Shown piece after piece: positions 3,349 to 41,499 of a stretch of 64,000 nt of DNA. Each line of letters starts with the position of its first letter. Positions within the stretch are counted from its first letter, which is position 1. Position numbers and translations under genes: made by a program. The DNA is from Gammaproteobacteria bacterium (GTDB taxonomy: Bacteria > Pseudomonadota > Gammaproteobacteria > SZUA-229): assembly GCA_026195255.1 (NCBI GenBank), contig JAPHSS010000015.1:124001-188000 (forward strand), given 5' to 3'. Under the pieces are notes generated by a model. The model had not been told where the DNA came from. It searched no databases and saw only the letters and a program-made list of their open reading frames with translations.

Positions 3349-5882
3349 AAATGACAAGGCGTGAATTTGTGAAAAATAATGCAATAGCAGCCACTGCTAC
3401 TGCCGCCGGTGTAACTATACCCGGTATTAAAGATGTGCTGGCGGCCTCCGAAGATAAAATTAGATGGGACAAAGCACCGTGTCGTTTTTGTGGTACTGGT
3501 TGCTCGGTATTAGTCGGTACACAAAATGATAAAATAGTGGCGACTCAGGGTGATCCAGATGCACCGGTGAATCGTGGTTTAAATTGTATTAAAGGTTATT
3601 TTCTTTCAAAAATCATGTACGGTAAAGATCGTTTGACCAAGCCGTTATTACGAAAAACTGATGGTGTATACGATAAAGAAGGTGAGTTTGAAGAAGTTAG
3701 CTGGGATGAAGCGTTTGACATCATGGCGCTTAAGTGGAAACAGGCGCTTAAGAACGATATGTTAGCCAATAAAGGCAAAGCTGCTGATGAGATTACCTCT
3801 ACTGTGGGTATGTTTGGTTCGGGTCAATGGACTATTTTTGAAGGTTACGCCGCATCCAAATTAATGAAGGCGGGTTTTCGTTCTAATCACATTGATCCTA
3901 ACGCGCGGCATTGTATGGCGTCTGCGGTTGGTGCATTTATTCGTGGCTTTGGTTCAGATGAACCTATGGGCTGTTACGATGATTTAGAACATGCCGATGC
4001 GTTTGTGCTGTGGGGTTCTAATATGGCGGAAATGCATCCTATTTTATGGACACGTATTACCGATACACGTTTAACTAAGAAAGATAGCGAAGTACACGTT
4101 TTATCTACATTCAAACATCGTAGTTTTGATTTGGCGGATAACGGTATGGTGTTTACACCACAAACCGATATGGTTATTCTGAATTACATTGCAAACTATA
4201 TTATTCAAAATAAAGCATACAATAAAAGCTTTATGGATAAACATGTAAACTTTAAAAAAACCACAACGGATATTGGATATGGTTTGCGCCCTGAGCATGA
4301 GCTTGAGAAAAAGAGAACAGGTACAGGTGGAAAATTAAGTGGTATTTCATTTGAAGAGTATGCAAAGAGCGTTGAAGAATACACACTAGAGTATGCAAGT
4401 AAATTATCTGGAGTTCCTGAGAAAAACTTATTACGTTTAGCAAAACTTTATGCGCATCCGACTAAGAAAATTACTTCTTTATGGACCATGGGTTTCAATC
4501 AGCATACACGTGGTGTATGGACAAATGGTTTGATGTATAACGTACATCTATTAACTGGAAAAATTTCGCAACCCGGTAATGGTCCTTTTTCGTTAACCGG
4601 TCAGCCATCTGCTTGTGGTACGGCCCGTGAAGTGGGTACATTCTCGCATCGTTTACCTGCCGACTACGTAGTTAAGAAAAAAGCACATCGTGATTTTGCG
4701 GAAAAGATTTGGGAATTACCTGAAGGCACCATTCCGGGTAAGCCTGGTTATCACGCCGTTTTACAAAATCGTATGTTGAAAGACAGTAAACTTAATGTTT
4801 ACTGGGTAATGTGTAATAACAATGTACAGGCTGCGGCTAACCTTAATGAAGAAACCATGCCGGGTTATCGTAATCCAGATAACTTTATTGTTACTTCTGA
4901 TCCCTATCCGACAGTTACTGCAATTGCATCAGATTTAATCTTACCAACATCAATGTGGACTGAAAAAGAGGGTGCTTATGGCAATGCGGAGCGTCGTACC
5001 CAGTTCTGGCGCCAGCAGGTAAGTGCACCAGGTGAATCTAAATCTGATTTATGGCAATTAATGGAATTCTCTAAACGTTTCAAAATGGAAGAAGTATGGC
5101 CAGCTGATTTACTGGCCAGGTCTCCACAATATAAAGGCAAAACTTTATTTAATGTTCTATTTGAAAACGGGCAGGTTAATAAATTTAAGAAACAAGCTGT
5201 AATGGATGACCGGGGTAATCAATACCAGAATGATGAAATGGAAGATTTTGGTTTCTATCCACAAAAAGGTTTATTTGAAGAATATCGACGGTTTCAATTA
5301 GAAGGTGTTAAAAAAGGTCATGAACAGGCACATTTCGATGTTTATCACAAAACCCGTGGTTTAAGGTGGCCGGTAGTCGATGGCAAAGAAACCTTATGGC
5401 GTTATGCAGAAGGTTATGATCCTTATGTTAAAAAAGGTGAGGGCTTCAAGTTCTACGGTCAAAAAGATGGTCGTGCGAATATTATTACTGCACCTTATGA
5501 GCCAGCGGCAGAGAGCCCGGATGCAGAATACGATTTATGGTTATCAACCGGTCGTGTGTTGGAACATTGGCATTCAGGCTCTATGACTCGTCGTGTTCCA
5601 GAGTTATATCGTGCATTTCCCGATGCTGTTGTATTTATGCATCCTGAAGATGCAAAAGCTCGTGGATTACGTCGAGGTTTAACTGCAAAAATAATTTCAC
5701 GTCGTGGAGAGATTGAATGTCAGGTTGAAACACGTGGGCGCAACAGACCACCTAAAGGCCTGGTTTTTGTTCCCTGGTTTGATGCTGGTCGTTTGATTAA
5801 TAAGGTAACACTTGATGCGACTGATCCGCTTTCTAAAGAAACAGATTACAAGAAGTGTGCCATTAAAATCGAAAAGGCTTGA
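3345..5882 (+). CDS. napA: Periplasmic nitrate reductase catalytic subunit NapA
   Basis: Reduces nitrate to nitrite in the periplasm with a bis-MGD molybdenum cofactor and one [4Fe-4S] cluster. The 845 residues match the usual ~830. A Tat signal (TRREFVK, residues 4-10) precedes the cluster cysteines 46, 49, 53 and 81. The Mo ligand is expected at Cys190 in [12 protein letters not shown]. The C-terminal molybdopterin-dinucleotide domain includes [12 protein letters not shown] and [16 protein letters not shown]. It receives electrons from NapB. Expression is coupled to napD by a 4-nt overlap. A 143-nt gap carrying a family B hairpin separates it from napG. Confidence 0.96.
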
Positions 5883-5887
5883 AAAGA

Positions 5888-5982
5888 TAGTCGTAAGTCA
5901 GAAGTCGGCAGTCTTAAGTCAAAAAGCATAAAAAACAGGCGAAGCCTGACTGCTTTGACTTACGACTTCGGACTTAGGACTT
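5888..5982. repeat. Inverted repeat with 7-nt phased AAGTC units, family B copy 1
   Basis: The left arm has five (A)AGTC units every 7 nt (5888-5920). The right arm has four GACTT units every 7 nt (5957-5982). The arms can pair. Between them is a small CAGGC-gaa-GCCTG hairpin. The element lies inside the nap operon between napA and napG, where the transcript would form a long stem-loop. Confidence 0.75.
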
Positions 5983-6025
5983 CTTTCAGAACATGTGAAT
6001 AAGAATTAACCGGAAATATAGTTAA

Positions 6026-6868
6026 GTGAGTAGCGCAACCAACAAAACATTACAAAGCCGTCGCCGTTTTTTGGAAAATATTTCCAGAGCGGCTGGTGGT
6101 GCTGCTTTGTTTGGAATTGGTTTAGGCTTGTATTCGCAACAGTCAAAATCTTTGCCTTCTACTGCTATTCGTCCACCGGGTGTGGATAATGAAGGTGATT
6201 TTTTATCAGCATGTGTGCGCTGTGGTTTATGTGTGCGTGATTGCCCTTATGACACATTAAAACTTTCCAGGCTGGGTGAAAACATAGCATTAGGTACACC
6301 TTATTTTGACGCAAGAAAAATTCCCTGTGAAATGTGTGAAGATATTCCCTGTGTTAAAGCCTGCCCAACAGGTGCGCTTGATCCTGAGTTAACCAATATC
6401 GATGATGCTCGAATGGGCCTGGCTGTATTAATAGATCAGGAGGCCTGTATTGCTTTTCAGGGTTTACGTTGTGAAGTTTGTTATAACGTTTGCCCAGTTA
6501 GAGACAAAGCAATATCTATCAATCGTTCGCATAATATTCGTACGGGTAAACATGCTTTATTTATTCCAGTAGTGCATTCATCAGATTGTACAGGCTGTGG
6601 TAAATGTGAGCATGCCTGTATTTTAGAAGAGGCGGCAATTAAAGTATTACCAACAAAACTCGCTAAGGGCGAGTTAGGCCATCATTACCGTTTAAGCTGG
6701 GAAGAAAAAGACAAAGCGGGAAAAAGTCTGGTAACTCCAGATATAGAGCATAAGTATAATTTACCTGAAGGAACACGTTACGATTACGAAGGTGAAGGTT
6801 TAATACAACCAGAGTCTACGCCATTTAATGAAAGCGCTATTGATCGCCAGAATAAAGGCAGCTTGTAG
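6026..6868 (+). CDS. napG: Ferredoxin-type quinol dehydrogenase subunit NapG
   Basis: Periplasmic Fe-S protein that works with NapH to pass quinol electrons towards NapC/NapB. A Tat signal ([11 protein letters not shown], from residue 12) comes first, then four [4Fe-4S] motifs: [20 protein letters not shown]...C, CEVCYNVC and [11 protein letters not shown]. The 280 residues are slightly longer than E. coli NapG. The start is GTG at 6026, chosen because it gives the complete Tat signal; GGAAA lies 11 nt upstream. It ends 2 nt before napH. Confidence 0.92.
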
Positions 6869-6870
6869 GT

Positions 6871-7728
6871 ATGGCCAAAAATATTAATAAAGTTATTGGT
6901 CAGGATGCGGTTATAAAAAAAGGCTGGTTATTGGCTCATAAGTGGTTATTGCTCAGACGTTTTAGCCAGTTAAGCATTATAGGTTTATTTTTACTAGGCC
7001 CGGTATCTGGAATATGGCTTATAAAAGGTAATATGTCGTCTAGTTTAATTCTTGATACGCTTTCATTAACTGATCCATTTGTTTTTTTACAAACTTTATT
7101 TACAGGCTATTTGCCGGAGATGACAGTTATTAGCGGCGCAGTTATTGTTGCATTATTTTATTTGATTGTGGGTGGCAGAGTGTACTGCTCATGGGTTTGC
7201 CCAATTAATATAGTGACAGATGCTGCAGACTGGTTAAGAAGATTATTAAAAGTAAAAACATCATTAAATTTTTCAAGAATGGGGCGTTATGGTTTGTTGG
7301 TGATTTCCTTAGTTCTGGCTTCTGTAAGCGGAATGCTCGTCTGGGAATTAGTAAACCCGGTAACCATGATACAAAGAGAAATAGTCTTTGCAATGGGTTA
7401 CTCCTGGTTGTTTATCATTGGCATATTTATTTTAGATGCGTTTGTTAGTCGCCGTGCATGGTGCGGACATTTATGTCCAATGGGGGCGTTTTATAGCCTT
7501 CTTGGTCGGGTAAGCATAATAAAGGTAAATGCGATTAATCGTGATTCGTGCAATGACTGTATGGATTGCTTTGCTGTCTGTCCGGAGCCACAGGTAATTA
7601 AACCCGCATTGAAAGGCAATGTTAGTAGTAGCCCTGTTATTAATTCCGGGAACTGTACAAACTGTGCTCGGTGCATTGATGTGTGTGCCGAAAATGTATT
7701 TACAATTAAACATAGATTTATAAACTAA
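6871..7728 (+). CDS. napH: Membrane quinol dehydrogenase subunit NapH
   Basis: Inner-membrane ferredoxin-type protein. It has about four transmembrane segments, with the CX3CP motifs typical of NapH (YCSWVCPINIV and WCGHLCPMGAF) at the membrane faces. Two C-terminal [4Fe-4S] motifs follow (CNDCMDCFAVC, CTNCARCIDVC). With NapG it forms the quinol-oxidising module. 285 residues is normal length. Directly behind napG. Confidence 0.92.
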   Translation: MAKNINKVIGQDAVIKKGWLLAHKWLLLRRFSQLSIIGLFLLGPVSGIWLIKGNMSSSLILDTLSLTDPFVFLQTLFTGYLPEMTVISGAVIVALFYLIVGGRVYCSWVCPINIVTDAADWLRRLLKVKTSLNFSRMGRYGLLVISLVLASVSGMLVWELVNPVTMIQREIVFAMGYSWLFIIGIFILDAFVSRRAWCGHLCPMGAFYSLLGRVSIIKVNAINRDSCNDCMDCFAVCPEPQVIKPALKGNVSSSPVINSGNCTNCARCIDVCAENVFTIKHRFIN

Positions 7729-7776
7729 AATCAACTTCACGATTTGTTTCTTAACTTCTCAGGGGGAGTTACACTT

Positions 7777-8220
7777 ATGAAAAATTCAATTTTAGCAGGG
7801 TTAATACTGATAGGTTCTTCAGTGCTGATATCAACAACCTCGGCTGCAGGTGAAGTTAATTCATTGCGTGGTTCAGCAAGCATAGATGCCCCATCTAATG
7901 AAGTTATTAATAAACGTAATATTAATGATCAAGCACCAATTTCACGTGATTATGTACAACAACCACCTTTGATACCGCATAGAACTAAAGGTTATAAAAT
8001 TAATATGAAGTTTAATAAATGTTTAACCTGTCATAGTTGGGCAAATTATCAAAAAGCTGGTGCGACGAAAATATCTCTAACACATTTTTCCGGACGTGAC
8101 GGTGAAGCAATGTCAAATGTCGCCCCAAGAAGATACTTCTGTAATCAATGCCATGTTCCACAGGCGGATGCTAAACCATTAGTAGAAAACTATTTTCAAT
8201 CAGTAAAAACTATTCATTAA
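7777..8220 (+). CDS. napB: Dihaem cytochrome c subunit NapB
   Basis: Periplasmic electron-transfer subunit of NapAB. The signal peptide covers residues 1-24 (MKNSILAGLIL...SAAG). Two c-haem sites are visible, CLTCH and CNQCH, with the NapB-typical HSW after the first and HVPQ after the second. 147 residues. The start ATG at 7777 follows AGGGGGAG; a longer frame from 7744 has no ribosome site. Confidence 0.92.
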   Translation: MKNSILAGLILIGSSVLISTTSAAGEVNSLRGSASIDAPSNEVINKRNINDQAPISRDYVQQPPLIPHRTKGYKINMKFNKCLTCHSWANYQKAGATKISLTHFSGRDGEAMSNVAPRRYFCNQCHVPQADAKPLVENYFQSVKTIH

Positions 8221-15044: not shown

Positions 15045-15506
15045 TTAAGCTTGCATCTGTTCAGGTGAAGGCGTTTTGCTAAAATACGCATCTGCATCGT
15101 CCTCATCGACTTCCTGTTCAAACTCATTATATAAAGGTAACTCATAGTCAAACCAGCCACGCAAACCGGTTTTAAGAGATGAAACATTAGTGAAACCCAT
15201 TAACTGCATTGTGAAAGCGGCTAATGCACTTCGGTTACCAGAGCGACAAATTACCACAACTTCTTTATCACGTGCATTAGCAAGTGCGGGTACCGTATCT
15301 TCGTAACCCCAGTCGCAGGATGCTTCCAGAACACCCCTGGGAACATTGATAGAATTTTTAATATGTACTGTGGAAAATTCAGCGGGTTCAGTGATATCTA
15401 TTAGCAAAATGTTATTATCATTATTAAGTTTCTCATGCAGATCCCATGGAAATAATTCATTTATATTTGGTAATACATCTTCAATAAGTGATCTGAATGT
15501 TTTCAT
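15045..15506 (-). CDS. Rhodanese-domain sulfurtransferase at the end of the dsr operon
   Basis: 153-residue cytoplasmic protein with one rhodanese domain (residues ~20-130) and the active loop CRSGNRS (Cys ~88), the short loop that prefers thiosulfate- or persulfide-type sulfur. It begins 13 nt after the response regulator stop and is probably the last gene of the dsr transcript. Rhodaneses, TusA and DsrE proteins pass persulfide to DsrC in sulfur oxidisers, so a feeding role is inferred. An acidic tail (EQEVDEDDADAYF) follows the domain. Confidence 0.85.
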   Translation of the reverse strand: MKTFRSLIEDVLPNINELFPWDLHEKLNNDNNILLIDITEPAEFSTVHIKNSINVPRGVLEASCDWGYEDTVPALANARDKEVVVICRSGNRSALAAFTMQLMGFTNVSSLKTGLRGWFDYELPLYNEFEQEVDEDDADAYFSKTPSPEQMQA

Positions 15507-15519
15507 TGTTTATATCCGC

Positions 15520-16185
15520 TTAAGACTCTTTATTTTGTTTTTGCCGAAGACCCTGTTCAACAGCTATAACAGCAGCTTCAACTCTAGAGTGAACTTCTAA
15601 CTTACGAAGAATGGCCTTAACATGAAGTTTTACAGTACCGTCAGAAATACCTAAATTCCGAGCTATAACTTTATTGCTTTGACCATCTGCAAGCAGGCAT
15701 AAAATTTCAAGTTCACGCGGAGTCAGTGCAGAGAAGGGCGTTTCTTTCTTTTTTACTTCTATGGGGTCACCCTGTACCATTTTAGCCAGTACATCAGTTA
15801 AGCCGTGCGCGACGACACTTTTACCTTTTTCTATATCACGTAAAGCACTTACCAGTTCGTCTGGTTCCATATCTTTTAAAAGATAACCCTGGGCGCCATT
15901 TCTCAGTGCTTCAACTAAATCCTGTTCTTCATTGCTGGTGGTAAGCATGACTATAGGTATTTCAACTTTCTGTTCTTTTGCTTTCTGTAATACTTCAAGC
16001 CCACTCATGTCTGGCATGCGTAGATCTAGCAATACAATATCTGGCTTATGTTCATCTATTAATAAAAGGCCTTTAGAGCCTTCAGCCACCGCATCGACAA
16101 CTTCAATGCCTCGTTGTTCGAGTAAGCCCTGTAAGCCAACACGAAATAGTGCATGATCGTCTATTATTAATACGCGCATACTCAA
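15520..16185 (-). CDS. NarL/FixJ-type response regulator linked to dsr
   Basis: 221 residues: receiver domain (residues ~4-120) with DD at 10-11, phospho-acceptor Asp in IVLLDLRMPDMSG (~56), Thr and Lys in the usual places (MLTTSN, LLKDM), then a LuxR/NarL helix-turn-helix (LTPREIL-like, LADGQSNKVIARNLGISDGTVKLHVKAILRKL). Overlaps the histidine kinase stop by 4 nt. NarL-family regulators often bind inverted heptamers separated by 2 nt, and a perfect 7-2-7 repeat lies upstream of dsrA (31703-31718). The link is an inference. Confidence 0.92.
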   Translation of the reverse strand: MSMRVLIIDDHALFRVGLQGLLEQRGIEVVDAVAEGSKGLLLIDEHKPDIVLLDLRMPDMSGLEVLQKAKEQKVEIPIVMLTTSNEEQDLVEALRNGAQGYLLKDMEPDELVSALRDIEKGKSVVAHGLTDVLAKMVQGDPIEVKKKETPFSALTPRELEILCLLADGQSNKVIARNLGISDGTVKLHVKAILRKLEVHSRVEAAVIAVEQGLRQKQNKES

Positions 16186-17597
16186 GAGCTTATCTCCGAT
16201 AGTCTTTGTAAAGGGTCATGGTCAGTATCACTACTGTAGGTAAAATTAAGCTCAATACGTGTACCTTCATCAGGTTCACTTTCTACGCGTAATTCACCAC
16301 CAAGGTAATTGGCTCGTTCACTCATTATACTTAAACCTACGTGTTTTCCAGGGTGATCGTTTTCTTTAGGAATTTCAAAACCACGGCCATCATTTTCAAT
16401 TAAAATATGATGGTGTCCAAATTCATCACAGCGAAACATAAGGCGCACATTTTTTGCGTTGCTGTGTTTGCGAATATTATTCATGGCTTCTTGAACGATA
16501 CGAAAAATATGCATTTCCAGGTTGGGGGGCAGGTCTGAATCATCCCACTCTTTTTGTAATAATATATGTGTGCCCGAGTCTTTTCTCATGCGTGAAATTA
16601 ATTTTTCAACCGCAGGAATTAAGCCCTGTTTATCTATTGGTGTTCTACAATGGGCAATCAGTTCTCGTAAATCTGAATAGGCTTCGTCTAAACTATTTTC
16701 AACTTGCTCAATACTCCGTATTGATTGAAATTCTGCGGTTGGCTGCAAAGTTTCATCAAGCACACGAACCTGAAATCGAAGGCTTGCTAATGTTTGAGCC
16801 AGCGAGTCATGTAGCTCATTTGCAATTAGGCTACGTTCCTGCATGATGATCATGCGACGTGATTCCTGATCCTGTTTGGCTTTTTCGATGGAGTTACAAA
16901 GTTGAACTGCCAGTGTAGAGAGTAATTCGTATAAATCATTTTGATTGTTCAGCGGTAACTGATTTAATTTAATTCGAATAACACCTAATGTCCGGTTGTT
17001 ATGATGTAACGGCAGATAAAAAGACTTGAAATCATCGGATACATCACACAACAAAATCTCAGCAAGTCGAGTGATATGTTCATTGTCATGTATGATGGAG
17101 TTATTGGTTAAAGTATCGGCAAGTTCTTTAGTGATTTTAATGCGTTTTTGTTGAGATACTATTTTGGGGTCAATGCCAGCGCCGGTAATATATTCAAGCC
17201 AGTTATTTTCGGTTATTAACCAGACTGATACATTATGTGCCTGAAGTTCTTCATAGGTTTTCTTACAAAAAAGATTCAGCAGCTCTTTTAATTCACGACC
17301 GGCATTTACAGTGCTGGTGATATTGTAAAGTATTTGTTGTGCTCGATATTGTTGCAGGCTATTTATGGCCTGTTTTTTCTGATTGCTAAAAGCTATATAA
17401 GATATGCCGATAAAAATAGAAATTATCAGTGTTATTTGTAGAATTAATGCGAAAGTTTTATTTGTTTCAGTATTAGCTAGCCAGAAGCTACTTGCAATTA
17501 ATAATAAGAGTAAAATAAATAATGCAAAAATACAGTTAAACAAATGTCGACTAGACATTTGTTTAACTTCAGAATAAATACGCTCGGAAAGTGACAA
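16182..17597 (-). CDS. NarX-family histidine kinase with minimal periplasmic loop
   Basis: 471 residues. Two closely spaced transmembrane helices (~20-43 and ~50-70) leave almost no periplasmic sensor. A GAF-like region (~95-240) follows, then HisKA_3 (ELHDSLAQTLASLRFQV, His ~262) and an HATPase domain (NAKNVRL..., DGRGF, GLSIMSERANYLGG). Sensing is therefore probably cytoplasmic. Several cysteines (LFCKKTY, LLCDVSD, QLCNSIE, AHCRTPI) could respond to redox or sulfane sulfur; this is speculation. Starts 6 nt after the dsrR stop, so it belongs to the dsr transcript. Confidence 0.9.
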   Translation of the reverse strand: MSLSERIYSEVKQMSSRHLFNCIFALFILLLLLIASSFWLANTETNKTFALILQITLIISIFIGISYIAFSNQKKQAINSLQQYRAQQILYNITSTVNAGRELKELLNLFCKKTYEELQAHNVSVWLITENNWLEYITGAGIDPKIVSQQKRIKITKELADTLTNNSIIHDNEHITRLAEILLCDVSDDFKSFYLPLHHNNRTLGVIRIKLNQLPLNNQNDLYELLSTLAVQLCNSIEKAKQDQESRRMIIMQERSLIANELHDSLAQTLASLRFQVRVLDETLQPTAEFQSIRSIEQVENSLDEAYSDLRELIAHCRTPIDKQGLIPAVEKLISRMRKDSGTHILLQKEWDDSDLPPNLEMHIFRIVQEAMNNIRKHSNAKNVRLMFRCDEFGHHHILIENDGRGFEIPKENDHPGKHVGLSIMSERANYLGGELRVESEPDEGTRIELNFTYSSDTDHDPLQRLSEISS

Positions 17598-30220: not shown

Positions 30221-31471
30221 TTATGCTTCAGCTTTACGCTCAAACCATTTAATAGCTTCGTCGTCCCAACCGTCCATACGAACGTAAGAGCTTTGACGAG
30301 TAGAGCTAACCATGTTTGGATCAACTTCAACGTCGATACCTTCAAGGAAGTTAACCAGACCGATACGCTCGATCATTTCACCACAACGTTCGTGCTCAAG
30401 ACCATTTTCTGCCCAGAAATCAATGATTTCTTCAGCAAGCTCAACCATTTCTTCGTAATCTTCACGAGTATCAAGCTTTCTGAATGGAACAACAACAGTA
30501 CCCATAAGGTCACCGATTTTCAGTGTACGCTTACCACCGATAAGGATTGTTACACCCTTATCTAAACCAGTACGTAATGCTTTAGGCATAACGTTGATGC
30601 AGTGCATGCAACGAACACAGTTACGGTTATCAACAGCAATTGTGTCGTCATCGTTAAGTGCAAGTGCCTGAGTCGGGCAACGAGTAATTACGTTATCAAT
30701 GATGTATTGACGGCCTTTAGCTTCAACATATTTCTTGAATTCAGCCTGGTCAACACGCATATCATCACGCCATGTACCGATTACTGCAAAGTCAGCACGT
30801 TCGATTGCATTCTGACAATCGTTAGGGCAACCAGAAATTTTAAATTTGAATTTGTAAGGTAGAGCTGGACGATGAACGTCATCAGTGAAGTTGTTTACCA
30901 ACCAACGCTGAGCAGCATGCTCATTTGTATTAGACATCTCACAACGAGCAGCACCAACACAAGACATAGCAGTACGTACACAAGGACCCGCACCACCCAT
31001 ATCCCAACCGTAGTCGTTGATATCGTCGAAGAACTTCTGAGTGCCTTCTGTCGTTGTACCGATAAACATGATGTTACCAGTCTGACCGTGGAAAGTTTGT
31101 AGACCAGAGCCGTACTTTTCCCATGATGCGCCTAGCTGGTTTAGCATGTCAGTTGTGTAGTAGTTACCAGGAGTCGGTTGAATACGCATTGTATGGAATT
31201 CTTTAGACTCAGGAAATGCATCTGCCACTTCAGAGAAACGAGGAATAACACCACCGCCGTAACCGAATACAGATACCGTTCCGCCTTTCCAGTAACCCTT
31301 ACGAGTTTCATATGAATGCTCAAGCTGACCAAGTAGTGAGCTAGTTACATCTGCGATGAACTGGTTTTCATGGTTATCACGTAATGCTTTAATACCAGTG
31401 ATGAAACTAGGCCATGGGCCACTTTCAAGTTCATCAAGCATGGGTGTTTCATAAATCTTCTTTGCTGCCAT
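30221..31471 (-). CDS. dsrA: Reverse dissimilatory sulfite reductase alpha subunit
   Basis: 416 residues. Catalytic subunit with cluster/sirohaem cysteines SCVGAARCE (CX5C) and SGCPNDCQN (CX3C), and a ferredoxin domain CPTQALAL...CVRCMHC. The presence of dsrEFH, dsrL and dsrN next to it indicates the oxidative (reverse) type. First gene of the operon, with a 239-nt leader to the 7-2-7 palindrome. ATG 31471 with GGAG upstream. Confidence 0.97.
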   Translation of the reverse strand: MAAKKIYETPMLDELESGPWPSFITGIKALRDNHENQFIADVTSSLLGQLEHSYETRKGYWKGGTVSVFGYGGGVIPRFSEVADAFPESKEFHTMRIQPTPGNYYTTDMLNQLGASWEKYGSGLQTFHGQTGNIMFIGTTTEGTQKFFDDINDYGWDMGGAGPCVRTAMSCVGAARCEMSNTNEHAAQRWLVNNFTDDVHRPALPYKFKFKISGCPNDCQNAIERADFAVIGTWRDDMRVDQAEFKKYVEAKGRQYIIDNVITRCPTQALALNDDDTIAVDNRNCVRCMHCINVMPKALRTGLDKGVTILIGGKRTLKIGDLMGTVVVPFRKLDTREDYEEMVELAEEIIDFWAENGLEHERCGEMIERIGLVNFLEGIDVEVDPNMVSSTRQSSYVRMDGWDDEAIKWFERKAEA

Positions 31472-31640: not shown

Positions 31641-31718
31641 AGTCTAGGGCGAGTTGAGCAATCAGAACATCTATCCCTTGGGAGGGTGTATTTCATTCTG
31701 TCTATCCCAAATGGGATA
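31641..31718 (-). promoter_or_regulatory. dsrA promoter region with GGGATA-type palindromes
   Basis: Two palindromes: a perfect 7-2-7 repeat TATCCCA-AA-TGGGATA at 31703-31718, and CCCTCCC-AA-GGGATA (minus strand) at 31672-31687. A -10-like TAGACT lies at 31646-31641, 25 nt beyond. The second palindrome recurs nearly unchanged in front of the 40889-41083 gene. The rest of the dsrA/32-kb divergent gap (31472-31997) shows no gene. Confidence 0.65.
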
Positions 31719-33241: not shown

Positions 33242-33955
33242 ATGTTATGGCAAGAAAATAAAAAAGCAGAACCCTATTCAGTGCCAGACACCGTTGCTGA
33301 CCTGTCGTTTAAGCTTATTAGTGAGAAGGTGCCTCTGGATCATGCACAGCAATTATCTGATGAAATTCAGAGAATATTACCGTGGATAGCAGATGAGCCT
33401 CAGGCAGGTGTACATATGATTCATGGTGCTGCCACAGGTAATGGCTGGAATAGACCTGAAGATGATTGTGAAGATGCCTGTATTTACCTTTCAAAGCGCT
33501 CAAGAATGCAAATTCGCATGCCTAAAACACGTTATGAGGACATGAATGAGCTAATAGGCAAAACGATACGTTTAAACGGGCACGAGGTAATGTTTGGCGA
33601 ATACCAGGTAAAACCATTCACCCCGTTGAGTACGTTGTTTTGTCGATACGTGATTATCGGAGACAATGAAACCGAAGATCAGTTTGTTTCTAGAGTAGAA
33701 GCTGATATGAAATCAATGGGAATTAATTTAACCAAAGCGCTGTGTGGTATGGAACATACGTTTAATATGGCAGATGGCCCCACTAAAACCGTGAGTATTA
33801 TGGTAGCGGATTTAGACCCTGAAGATGCGGTGACGTTACAGGTAAATGGTATAGGTGAGGGCAGAAAAGCAGGTTTTGGTTTGTTTTTAGCCCATAAAGG
33901 CATAAATGCAGTAGGTGATATGTCTGATATGCAACATTTTGATGGAACTAAATAG
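33242..33955 (+). CDS. Orphan Cas6/Cmx6-like RAMP protein
   Basis: 237 residues. Resembles the Cas6 variant Cmx6 of the type I-MYXAN label: LSFKLISEKVPLDHAQQLSDEI at the start of a ferredoxin fold, HMIHGAATGNGWNRPED, YLSKRSRMQIRMPK, TPLSTLFCRYV, and a C-terminal glycine-rich RAMP loop GIGEGRKAGFGLF followed by AHKGI. The loop fits the Cas6 pattern GhGxxxxxGxG. Candidate catalytic His are at ~58 and ~61. No cas1, cas2, cas3, cas5, cas7 or repeat array is present within the window. Cas6 proteins cut RNA at hairpins, so another RNA substrate is possible. Start ATG at 33242 behind AGAGAG. Confidence 0.72.
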   Translation: MLWQENKKAEPYSVPDTVADLSFKLISEKVPLDHAQQLSDEIQRILPWIADEPQAGVHMIHGAATGNGWNRPEDDCEDACIYLSKRSRMQIRMPKTRYEDMNELIGKTIRLNGHEVMFGEYQVKPFTPLSTLFCRYVIIGDNETEDQFVSRVEADMKSMGINLTKALCGMEHTFNMADGPTKTVSIMVADLDPEDAVTLQVNGIGEGRKAGFGLFLAHKGINAVGDMSDMQHFDGTK

Positions 33956-34198: not shown

Positions 34199-34237
34199 CT
34201 AATGGGATAATCGACTTTTTAAATTTTTTAACATAAA
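34199..34237 (+). promoter_or_regulatory. CTAATGGGATA motif and -10 before the DsrC-like gene
   Basis: CTAATGGGATA at 34199-34209 is followed after 22 nt by CATAAA (34232-34237), a -10-like hexamer (four of six). Same motif and spacing as at 34801-34842 and 41197-41230, and similar to the dsrA promoter. Confidence 0.55.
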
Positions 34238-34301
34238 GTACCCAGCCATTATTTTACGCATTTTACAAATTTAACAAATTAATTAAAATTGAGGCAATAT
34301 C

Positions 34302-34625
34302 ATGGCAGCACTTGATTCTGTTGAAAGAACTGACAAAGGTTATCTAGTTGACGTTAATGACTGGAACGAAGAAATCGCAACTGAGCTTTTCGCTGAAGAA
34401 GGCATTGTACCCACTCAGGAACACTGGGATGTGGTTAAATATGTCCGTGATGAGACAGTTGGTGGCGACGAGCCTAATGAACGTAGCATTATGAAAGCTA
34501 TGGGTAAAATCTGGGGTCGTAAAGTGACTTCTAAGGAAATGTATGACATGTTTCCTGGAATGCCATCCAAGCAAGGCCTGAAAATTGGTGGGTGCCCAAT
34601 GTCTACTCGCAAAGGCGGTTATTAA
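34302..34625 (+). CDS. DsrC-like protein with a displaced cysteine
   Basis: 107 residues with DsrC/TusE family architecture (EHWDVVKYVRDETVGGDEPNERSIMKAMGKIWGRKVTSKEMYDMFPGMPSKQG). The C-terminal arm reads KIGGCPMSTRKGGY. Both canonical cysteines are missing, and one new cysteine sits where DsrC has Leu-Pro. Resembles the RspA-type (regulatory) group of DsrC relatives. The promoter carries the dsr-type motif, and the gene is followed by a family F palindrome like dsrC itself, so expression is probably coordinated with dsr. Start ATG with GAGG upstream. Confidence 0.85.
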   Translation: MAALDSVERTDKGYLVDVNDWNEEIATELFAEEGIVPTQEHWDVVKYVRDETVGGDEPNERSIMKAMGKIWGRKVTSKEMYDMFPGMPSKQGLKIGGCPMSTRKGGY

Positions 34626-34633
34626 GCATCCAT

Positions 34634-34730
34634 CTCACGCTTTGTCGGCTCCCTGCCGTTGTTAGAAAATACTTACTTACATCTGTAAGTGCGCATTTTC
34701 TGCCTAGGCAGGGAGCCGACAAAACGTAAG
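34634..34730 (+). repeat. Palindromic 3' element, family F copy 3
   Basis: Arms CTCACGCTTTGTCGGCTCCC / GGGAGCCGACAAAACGTAAG enclose the core (GTTAGAAAAT, CTTACATCTGTAAG, GCATTTTCTGCC), in reverse complement to copies 1-2 but in the same orientation relative to the upstream gene. Begins 8 nt after the stop of the DsrC-like gene. Confidence 0.85.
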
Positions 34731-34798
34731 CTGAATACTTAATAAATAATGCAGTTATTGTACTGTGTTAAAGAGATATTAAAAATAATTCGTTTCTA

Positions 34799-34842
34799 TT
34801 CCTAATGGGGTAGGGGCATTTTACTGAAAAAACGGCTATAAT
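34799..34842 (+). promoter_or_regulatory. Promoter of the 67-residue protein gene with CCTAATGGGGTA motif
   Basis: CCTAATGGGGTA (34801-34812), then 24 nt, then a perfect -10 TATAAT (34837-34842); transcription would start near 34849. No good -35 is present, as expected for an activator-dependent promoter with the motif near -40. Confidence 0.65.
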
Positions 34843-34895: not shown

Positions 34896-35099
34896 ATGGC
34901 TGATAGAAATGCAATGATCAAAGAATTGATCGCTATGCAAAAGAAATTCATCGAAGACGAGCACAAGAACGGTTTTAACGCTCAGCAGTACTTCACACCA
35001 GATTCAGGTAGTGCACTTGATGGTTACCGTGATGAATTCAATGAGAAATCACAGGCGCTTGTTGATGTAGCACATGCTGATAAAGGTTCTCATCGTTAA
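34896..35099 (+). CDS. Small conserved-looking hypothetical protein, dsr-type promoter
   Basis: 67 residues, charged, helical (MIKELIAMQKKFIEDEHKNGFN, then DSGSALDGYRDEFNEKSQALVDVAH). No membrane segment or cysteine. Good gene structure: promoter with TATAAT, GAGGGT ribosome site, and a strong terminator 23 nt after the stop. I believe similar small proteins occur in other dsr-containing bacteria but cannot verify this. The shared promoter motif suggests a job during sulfur oxidation. Confidence 0.75.
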   Translation: MADRNAMIKELIAMQKKFIEDEHKNGFNAQQYFTPDSGSALDGYRDEFNEKSQALVDVAHADKGSHR

Positions 35100-40888: not shown

Positions 40889-41083
40889 TTAAGCTTTAAA
40901 GTTAGCCGCGTTATCAGTGTTCTTATCAGTGCCATCTGCATAGCCTGCTGTGTAAGCTTCAGTCACACGTTGCTCTTCACGCTCCGGATTACATACATAG
41001 CCACCCTGCCAGCCCTGGATGTACTCTGGATCAATACCATCTTTTTCCAGTTTAACAACTGTATCGTAATATTCTTGGTTCAT
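40889..41083 (-). CDS. Small hypothetical protein with a dsrA-like promoter
   Basis: 64 residues with aromatic- and glycine-rich middle (IDPEYIQGWQGGYVCNPERE) and acidic tail. One cysteine. The CAGGAG ribosome site, -10 TATAAT, long leader with an 8-bp hairpin and a strong terminator make it a solid gene. I recall small proteins with a similar YIQGWQGGY motif in other sulfur oxidisers, unverified. The promoter has the same two motifs as dsrA, so co-regulation with dsr is likely. Confidence 0.8.
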   Translation of the reverse strand: MNQEYYDTVVKLEKDGIDPEYIQGWQGGYVCNPEREEQRVTEAYTAGYADGTDKNTDNAANFKA

Positions 41084-41196: not shown

Positions 41197-41260
41197 ATTA
41201 TAGCAGAGATAGAGGCTGTCTATATATCCCTATAGGGAGGGTAAGTCCACTATCCCATTA
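41197..41260 (-). promoter_or_regulatory. Promoter of the 64-residue gene with two dsr-type motifs
   Basis: On the minus strand: TTAATGGGATA (41260-41251), then TACCCTCCC-TATA-GGGATA (41243-41225), 22 nt, then perfect -10 TATAAT (41202-41197). The central palindrome is nearly the same as CACCCTCCC-AA-GGGATA before dsrA. In the leader AAATGACT-atttc-AGTCATTT (41163-41183) forms a hairpin. Confidence 0.7.
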
Positions 41261-41499
41261 AGTGGTGCGAATTTTAAGGCTAAAAGATCAAAAATCAAGG
41301 TAAATCTGTTATCCAGGGGATGATATCTCCACTTTTTTGCTCTAAATTCCACCATAGTCTTTATGTGTCAACTTCAGAAGTGGATAAGAAAATACTAATC
41401 CACACAGGCTATCAGTTTATGTCAGTAGCAAAAACCTGCTAAAATAGGCGGCTGAAAAGAGAATTATTCTCCCCCCGACAATTGTTATAGAGGTTTACC

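Follow-up and report, generated by a model that had tools for sequence, protein, structure and literature searches.

The closest described counterparts of the regulatory locus considered here are the NarX-NarL and NarQ-NarP two-component systems of Escherichia coli. NarL sites are inverted heptamers in a 7-2-7 form, with TACYYMT as the consensus heptamer. Other regulators have been described for sulfur oxidation itself. In Bacillus licheniformis, according to the available part of PMC9918477, the phosphorylated regulator of the two-component system NreBC activates sulfur-oxidation genes on sulfide, but its targets are sqr and pdo rather than dsr, and the sensor of its kinase is a PAS domain. 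The RsrS-RsrR system of Acidithiobacillus caldus, as presented in the accessible sections of PMC5093147, is likewise a two-component system that is encoded with sulfur genes and activates through an inverted repeat; however, it serves the tetrathionate pathway, and its repeat, AACACCTGTTACACCTGTT, is unrelated in sequence to the motif described below. SoxR and sHdrR of Hyphomicrobium denitrificans also place sulfur oxidation under transcriptional control, but they repress the Sox and sHdr systems and respond to sulfane sulfur (PMC10451225, available text), and no mention of NarL was found in that portion of the article. The Allochromatium vinosum genome, as described in the available part of PMC3368242, contains a NarX/NarL pair (Alvin_1057, Alvin_1058) yet no obvious nitrate reduction genes. 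No dsr regulator or operator was named for sulfur oxidisers in the accessible text of the open-access literature searched, a scope outside which most subscription papers fall.

The DNA analysed here, referred to as the window, is a stretch of 64,000 nt from the forward strand of contig JAPHSS010000015.1 (positions 124,001-188,000; assembly GCA_026195255.1). It resembles the E. coli systems in the architecture of an encoded response regulator, in the closest family model of this protein, in the C-terminal part of the adjoining kinase and in inverted heptamers spaced 2 nt apart. It differs from them in that the regulator scores below the cut-off of the NarL model and carries a leucine at the position of NarL Val189, in that the PilJ nitrate-sensor domain of NarX is absent from the seven dsr-type kinases compared, and in that the half-site is TATCCC, with T at position 3, and the proposed targets are sulfur-oxidation genes.

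The dsrA promoter and its two elements

The first gene of the dsr operon, dsrA (30221-31471, minus strand), encodes sulfite reductase domains. Its whole promoter lies within 31641-31718 on the same strand, where the distal palindrome TATCCCATTTGGGATA (31703-31718) is followed by the proximal element CCCTCCCAAGGGATA (31672-31686) and then by a script-located hexamer, TAGACT (31641-31646), which is the putative -10. The layout is thus TATCCC-N4-GGGATA, CCCTCCC-AA-GGGATA and TAGACT, with 25 nt between the end of the half-site and the hexamer. With the hexamer placed at -12 to -7, the centres of palindrome and proximal element would fall near -76 and -44, respectively. The motif strings quoted in the first-pass annotation, here and before three small genes, were all located by script with both strands read, and the spacings given there between half-site and -10 (22-24 nt, and 25 nt for dsrA) were right, being recomputed as 22, 24, 24 and 25 nt.

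Conservation was assessed in two sets of loci. True DsrA (E below 1e-150) was found in 33 of 58 genomes of relatives, from which 30 loci were retrieved, and a second search contributed its top 80 of 566 as named loci. Removal of six near-duplicates from the 110 rows left 104 distinct dsrA upstreams, whose record titles include Halochromatium, Thiocapsa, Marichromatium, Thiorhodococcus and Thiothrix. The best match to TATCCC-N4-GGGATA was sought between -330 and -100, and 95 of the 104 upstreams held one with at most 2 mismatches in 12, against 1.3 expected from dinucleotide shuffles and 3 from the same upstreams read backwards. When hexamers of the form T-A-x-x-x-T with at least 4/6 matches to TATAAT were scored as -10, 76 of the 95 upstreams had one 71-73 nt from the start of the palindrome (exactly 72 nt in 57), as had 48 of the 66 named loci taken alone; other offsets held a mean of about one such hexamer each, except for a second peak of 19 upstreams at 44, which is the TAGGAT of the proximal element. 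Between palindrome and -10 there is a C-rich and then a G-rich element with the consensus ccccCCCa..gg..Gg. The motif is therefore genuine and far above chance, and most of the sulfur bacteria examined keep the palindrome at a constant spacing from the dsr promoter; the lack of conservation upstream of dsrA in close relatives that would have refuted the first-pass annotation is not what is seen.

The palindrome is also specific. Its sole exact copy in the window's own 3.56 Mb genome lies upstream of dsrA, and in 37 genomes, hand-picked like all those used for pattern scans and for searches of small-gene homologues, TAYCCC-N4-GGGRTA occurs at 39 places, against 11 for the reversed control. Comparison of positions by hand assigned 27 of these places to the upstream of dsrA, 2 to that of a 67-residue gene discussed below and 10 to other regions, the last number being about the control level, so that the motif withstood the genome scan proposed for it. 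The proximal pattern CCCTCCC-N2-5-GGGRTA was found at 13 places in 16 genomes (control, 1), 4 of them before dsrA and the other 9 before a gene of the Alvin_2107 family. Two palindrome copies, G055:C1:1957453 and G098:C2:219218, lie about 1.2-1.3 kb from an Alvin_2107-family gene in two distant genomes.

The half-site by itself carries no such information. The half-site TAATGGGATA with at most one mismatch shows no excess in the window (7 against 5.9 expected), nor does GGGATA-N10-40-TATAAT in the window's own genome (20 against 20 in the reversed control) or GGGRTA-N22-24-TATAAT in nine genomes (34 against 39). The suggestion that a half-site with TATAAT marks the regulon genome-wide consequently failed, and this combination was rejected as a regulon finder. 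The places of GGGRTA-N22-24-TATAAT that recur between genomes precede the genes of the 67-residue protein, of the Alvin_2107 family and of a secreted protein, with one more inside long open frames of the two nearest genomes.

A NarL-like regulator, its kinase and their neighbourhood

The NarL-like response regulator (15520-16185, minus strand), which is the proposed binder, consists of a receiver domain (Response_reg, PF00072, 108 bits) and a LuxR/GerE helix-turn-helix (GerE, PF00196, 77 bits). NarL is its best match in the PDB and also its best NCBIfam model, at 226.4 bits, below the cut-off of 250; the same model gives 209.5 bits for L316, from a purple sulfur bacterium, 227.2 for L322, from Thiothrix lacustris, and 423.1 for E. 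coli NarL. Orthologues (E below 1e-65) were found in 36 of the 58 relatives' genomes, of which 30 belong to the 33 with DsrA and the other 6 lack a full DsrA hit. The three DsrA genomes lacking an orthologue are 57-86% complete, and the six with an orthologue but no full DsrA hit (G013, G016, G018, G025, G027 and G030) are 72-95% complete, G016 having a short DsrA fragment. Outside the family, 5 of 21 genomes have both proteins and 16 have neither (p 5e-5). In 20 of the 33 DsrA genomes the regulator is found no more than about 15 kb from dsrA on the same contig; in G015 and G028 the regulator is divergent, about 2 kb upstream of dsrA, and in purple sulfur bacteria such as that of L316 it lies away from the dsr genes. 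Among 50 named genomes, hand-picked for spread from the 80, regulator and motif occur together in 39, the motif alone in 6, which are drafts, the regulator alone, meaning no palindrome within 2 mismatches, in 4, and neither in 1.

In a tree of 95 rows, a branch with support 100/98 separates 77 orthologues from E. coli NarL, NarP and the second NarL/NarP-like regulators that several genomes, several purple sulfur bacteria among them, possess. Long branches, flagged by the program, leave the finer joins of the tree unsure. TVKLHV is the recognition-helix sequence of all orthologue rows but L358, which has Val; NarL, NarP and most second regulators have TVKVH, with the exceptions of L335 (Ala) and L350 (Ile). 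We take Lys188, Val189 and Lys192 of E. coli NarL to be the base-reading positions. The window regulator keeps the lysines at 188 and 192 and has Leu at the position of Val189; among the rows the lysine at 188 is kept, and Arg replaces that at 192 in five distant ones (L334, L351-L353, L356). The leucine in the recognition helix might go with the T at position 3 of the half-site. By family, linkage and co-occurrence the NarL-type protein is the best candidate for the binder, and the part of the first-pass annotation that named it is supported to this extent; the binding and activation also ascribed to it are predictions. The idea that a broken or divergent regulator (L140, L142, L149) accompanies loss of the motif was dropped, since these upstreams hold variants within 2/12 mismatches. 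A single case may be recorded here, that of genome G097, which has the only orthologue row with Val (L358) and a dsrA palindrome (L144) with a TACCCC half, TACCCCTTAGGGGATA.

The partner histidine kinase (16182-17597, minus strand), listed from a TTG start, contains HisKA_3 and HATPase_c domains, and in a family search run from the ATG at 17558 it was NarQ/NarX-like in its C-terminal part only. It is followed by the regulator and then by a rhodanese gene (15045-15506, minus strand; PF00581). All 60 loci compared, among which a few genomes occur twice, have a kinase homologue beside the regulator. Of 93 regions, in which several genes were fetched twice, 74 have a rhodanese gene following the regulator, and in 43 dsrN or a gene for a 135-residue Fe-S-type protein precedes. 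The order dsrN, Fe-S-type gene, kinase, regulator, rhodanese is common to the window and L322. Around L325 of Candidatus Thiodiazotropha endolucinida, kinase, regulator and rhodanese (3514-8176) are followed by a convergent gene for the siroheme synthase CysG, siroheme being the cofactor of DsrAB. The 11 kb surrounding that regulator contain 15 ORFs, of which four were classified, as an ABC transporter, a CCA-adding enzyme, a rhodanese-like protein and CysG, and no sox gene is among these four.

A GAF domain scores above a curated cut-off in four of seven dsr-type kinases and just below it in L330, and the matches in L068 and in the window kinase (E 0.06) are weak. Pfam detected no PilJ domain in any of the seven and detected one in E. 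coli NarX, and a crude P-box-like pattern matched none of 19 kinases. Sensing through cysteines is not claimed, as three or four cysteine columns are occupied in 19-38 of 72 aligned kinases and none in the window kinase.

Small genes with similar sites

Three small genes of the window carry related elements, again located by script. The gene for a 64-residue protein (40889-41083, minus strand) has a distal half-site, TTAATGGGATA (41251-41261), a proximal site, TACCCTCCCTATAGGGATA (41225-41243), and a TATAAT (41197-41202) 22 nt beyond the latter, all on the minus strand. On the plus strand, a 107-residue DsrC-like gene (34302-34625; PF04358 and TIGR03342) is preceded by the half-site CTAATGGGATA (34199-34209) and, after 24 nt, by the -10-like TAAAGT (34234-34239); and the 67-residue gene (34896-35099) is preceded by CTATTCCTAATGGGGTA (34796-34812) and, also after 24 nt, by TATAAT (34837-34842).

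The 64-residue protein matches NF049856, titled 'Alvin_2107 family globule sulfur oxidation protein', at 103.1 bits against a cut-off of 60. Homologues were found in 35 of 38 genomes, and of the 35 matches 30 loci were read, as were 30 each from 31 matches of the DsrC-like gene and 33 of the 67-residue gene. GGGRTA stands at the expected place in 23 of the 30 Alvin_2107-family loci, 22-23 nt from the -10 in 9 and 33-34 nt from it in 14, so that the two spacing classes are one helical turn apart. It is missing in four purple sulfur bacteria (L245, L249-L251), in the two family members L236 and L237, and in L252, a locus cut by the contig end. The 67-residue protein, for which domain and family profile searches returned no family match, has a homologue in 32 of 39 genomes tested, and a site (GGGRTA, TGGGTA or TGGTA) precedes it in 27 of 30 loci, at 22-24 nt from the -10 in 19 of these 27. 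Because of this conserved site the gene likely belongs to the sulfur-oxidation programme, to which the first-pass annotation had assigned both orphan genes; for the 64-residue gene NF049856 bears the assignment out. The site before the DsrC-like gene is present in the window's genus, but more widely GGGRTA was found in only 12 of 30 loci, five of this genus and seven others, with the 24-nt spacing in 5 of the 12, and 18 loci have none; on this point the earlier claim did not hold.

The -35 regions are weak. Four of six matches to TTGACA are reached in none of 22 loci of the 67-residue gene and in 6 of 23 loci of the Alvin_2107 gene, the latter share being above the 12% background for at least four; five of six are never reached. 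With a site at fixed phase to the -10, near -40, these promoters appear from their sequence to be of the activator-dependent type.

A small secreted protein of about 105-120 residues with the motif DSVY[TS]WG (L410-L415) is possibly a further target. In the five genomes of the genus with this gene the upstream elements, which resemble the NarL-type site, are similar and not identical, with GGGRTA in L410, L411 and L414 and diverged forms in L412 and L413, the latter from the window's genome (G000:C28). Two other features were observed near the DsrC-like gene. Between it and the 67-residue gene, at 34634-34740, a long imperfect inverted repeat, CGGCTCCCTGCC ... GGCAGGGAGCCG, was recognised by eye and is possibly a terminator or processing site; on its other side, between it and a TauD-family gene, a gene at 33242-33955 on the plus strand encodes a protein of 237 residues that matches Cas6 strongly (PF09559, 175 bits).

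A proposed switch for the dsr operon

The motif likely serves as operator for a NarL-like two-component system that has been kept with the dsr genes and activates dsrA and other genes. From the sites, their geometry and conservation, and the linkage and co-occurrence of the regulator, all of which are observed, we infer the binding, its dependence on phosphorylation, the activating rather than repressing effect and the signal. The kinase, having a GAF-type sensor in relatives and no nitrate-sensor domain, would answer to reduced sulfur or to the redox state and would phosphorylate the response regulator, which would then bind inverted heptamers of the form TATCCCW-NN-WGGGATA. At dsrA the regulator would occupy both sites, whose centres near -76 and -44 are about three helical turns apart and precede the -10, and would recruit RNA polymerase. 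A site near -43, or one turn further up, would do the same for the Alvin_2107-family gene, for the 67-residue gene and, close to the window's genus, for the DsrC-like gene. The simplest reading of this geometry is an activator bound at a fixed helical phase on promoters without a strong -35. Counting against the proposal are the six named genomes with motif and no detected orthologue, the four with orthologue and no palindrome, the six relatives with orthologue and no full DsrA hit, the purple sulfur bacteria that lack GGGRTA before their Alvin_2107 gene, the 18 DsrC-like loci that lack it, the -35 matches above background at the Alvin_2107 gene, the position of the regulator away from dsr in purple sulfur bacteria such as that of L316 and the lack of enrichment of half-sites.

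Several other explanations were weighed against this two-component operator. The site could be real and bound by another factor, either a second NarL/NarP-like regulator or an unrelated protein, as second regulators of the same DNA-binding class exist in several genomes and in 6 of the 50 named genomes the motif is present but no orthologue was detected; we judge this unlikely, for the second regulators fall outside the orthologue group, and the orthologue tracks DsrA outside the family (5 with both, 16 with neither) and lies near dsrA in 20 of 33 genomes. About as improbable is the reading in which the dsr-linked regulator does bind but mainly represses, or relays a respiratory signal such as oxygen or nitrate. 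NarL proteins are annotated in E. coli as dual regulators and a protein bound near -43 could equally obstruct polymerase, but the weak -35 regions and the conserved helical phase fit an activator, and the absence of PilJ from seven kinases and the rhodanese gene after the regulator also count against this reading.

DsrC itself reportedly binds DNA upstream of dsrA in Allochromatium vinosum, a finding attributed to Grimm et al. 2010, and dsrC lies in the operon, so that the palindrome might be a DsrC site; with its 7-2-7 form, that of NarL sites, and with a NarL-like protein co-inherited, this seems very improbable. The same work by Grimm et al. 2010 is cited for dsr regulation in the available parts of PMC3397948 and PMC3368242. 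Least probable of all is a chance similarity in AT-rich promoter DNA, a view for which the control-level counts of half-sites across the window and of genomic GGGATA/TATAAT pairs might be cited. It can be taken as excluded because 95 of 104 upstreams carry the palindrome against 1.3 expected, and the fixed distance to the -10 and the specificity of the proximal pattern for two promoters speak against it as well.

Under the favoured reading of a NarL-like activator, the analysis provides a candidate regulator, an operator defined to the base and a short list of targets for the switching-on of dsr. Sequence records from purple sulfur bacteria in culture and from Thiothrix contain the motif too, which makes the proposal testable. 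It also places a conserved gene of 67 residues, which has no family match, in the sulfur programme as a likely member. A broader proposal, to which we give even chances, is that the kinase-regulator-rhodanese system derives from NarL, its nitrate sensor lost or exchanged and its recognition helix altered to TATCCC half-sites, and acts in Gammaproteobacteria generally to switch on reverse-Dsr sulfur oxidation, with the double operator nearly private to dsrA. If true, this would explain why sulfur bacteria without nitrate respiration have NarL-like genes.
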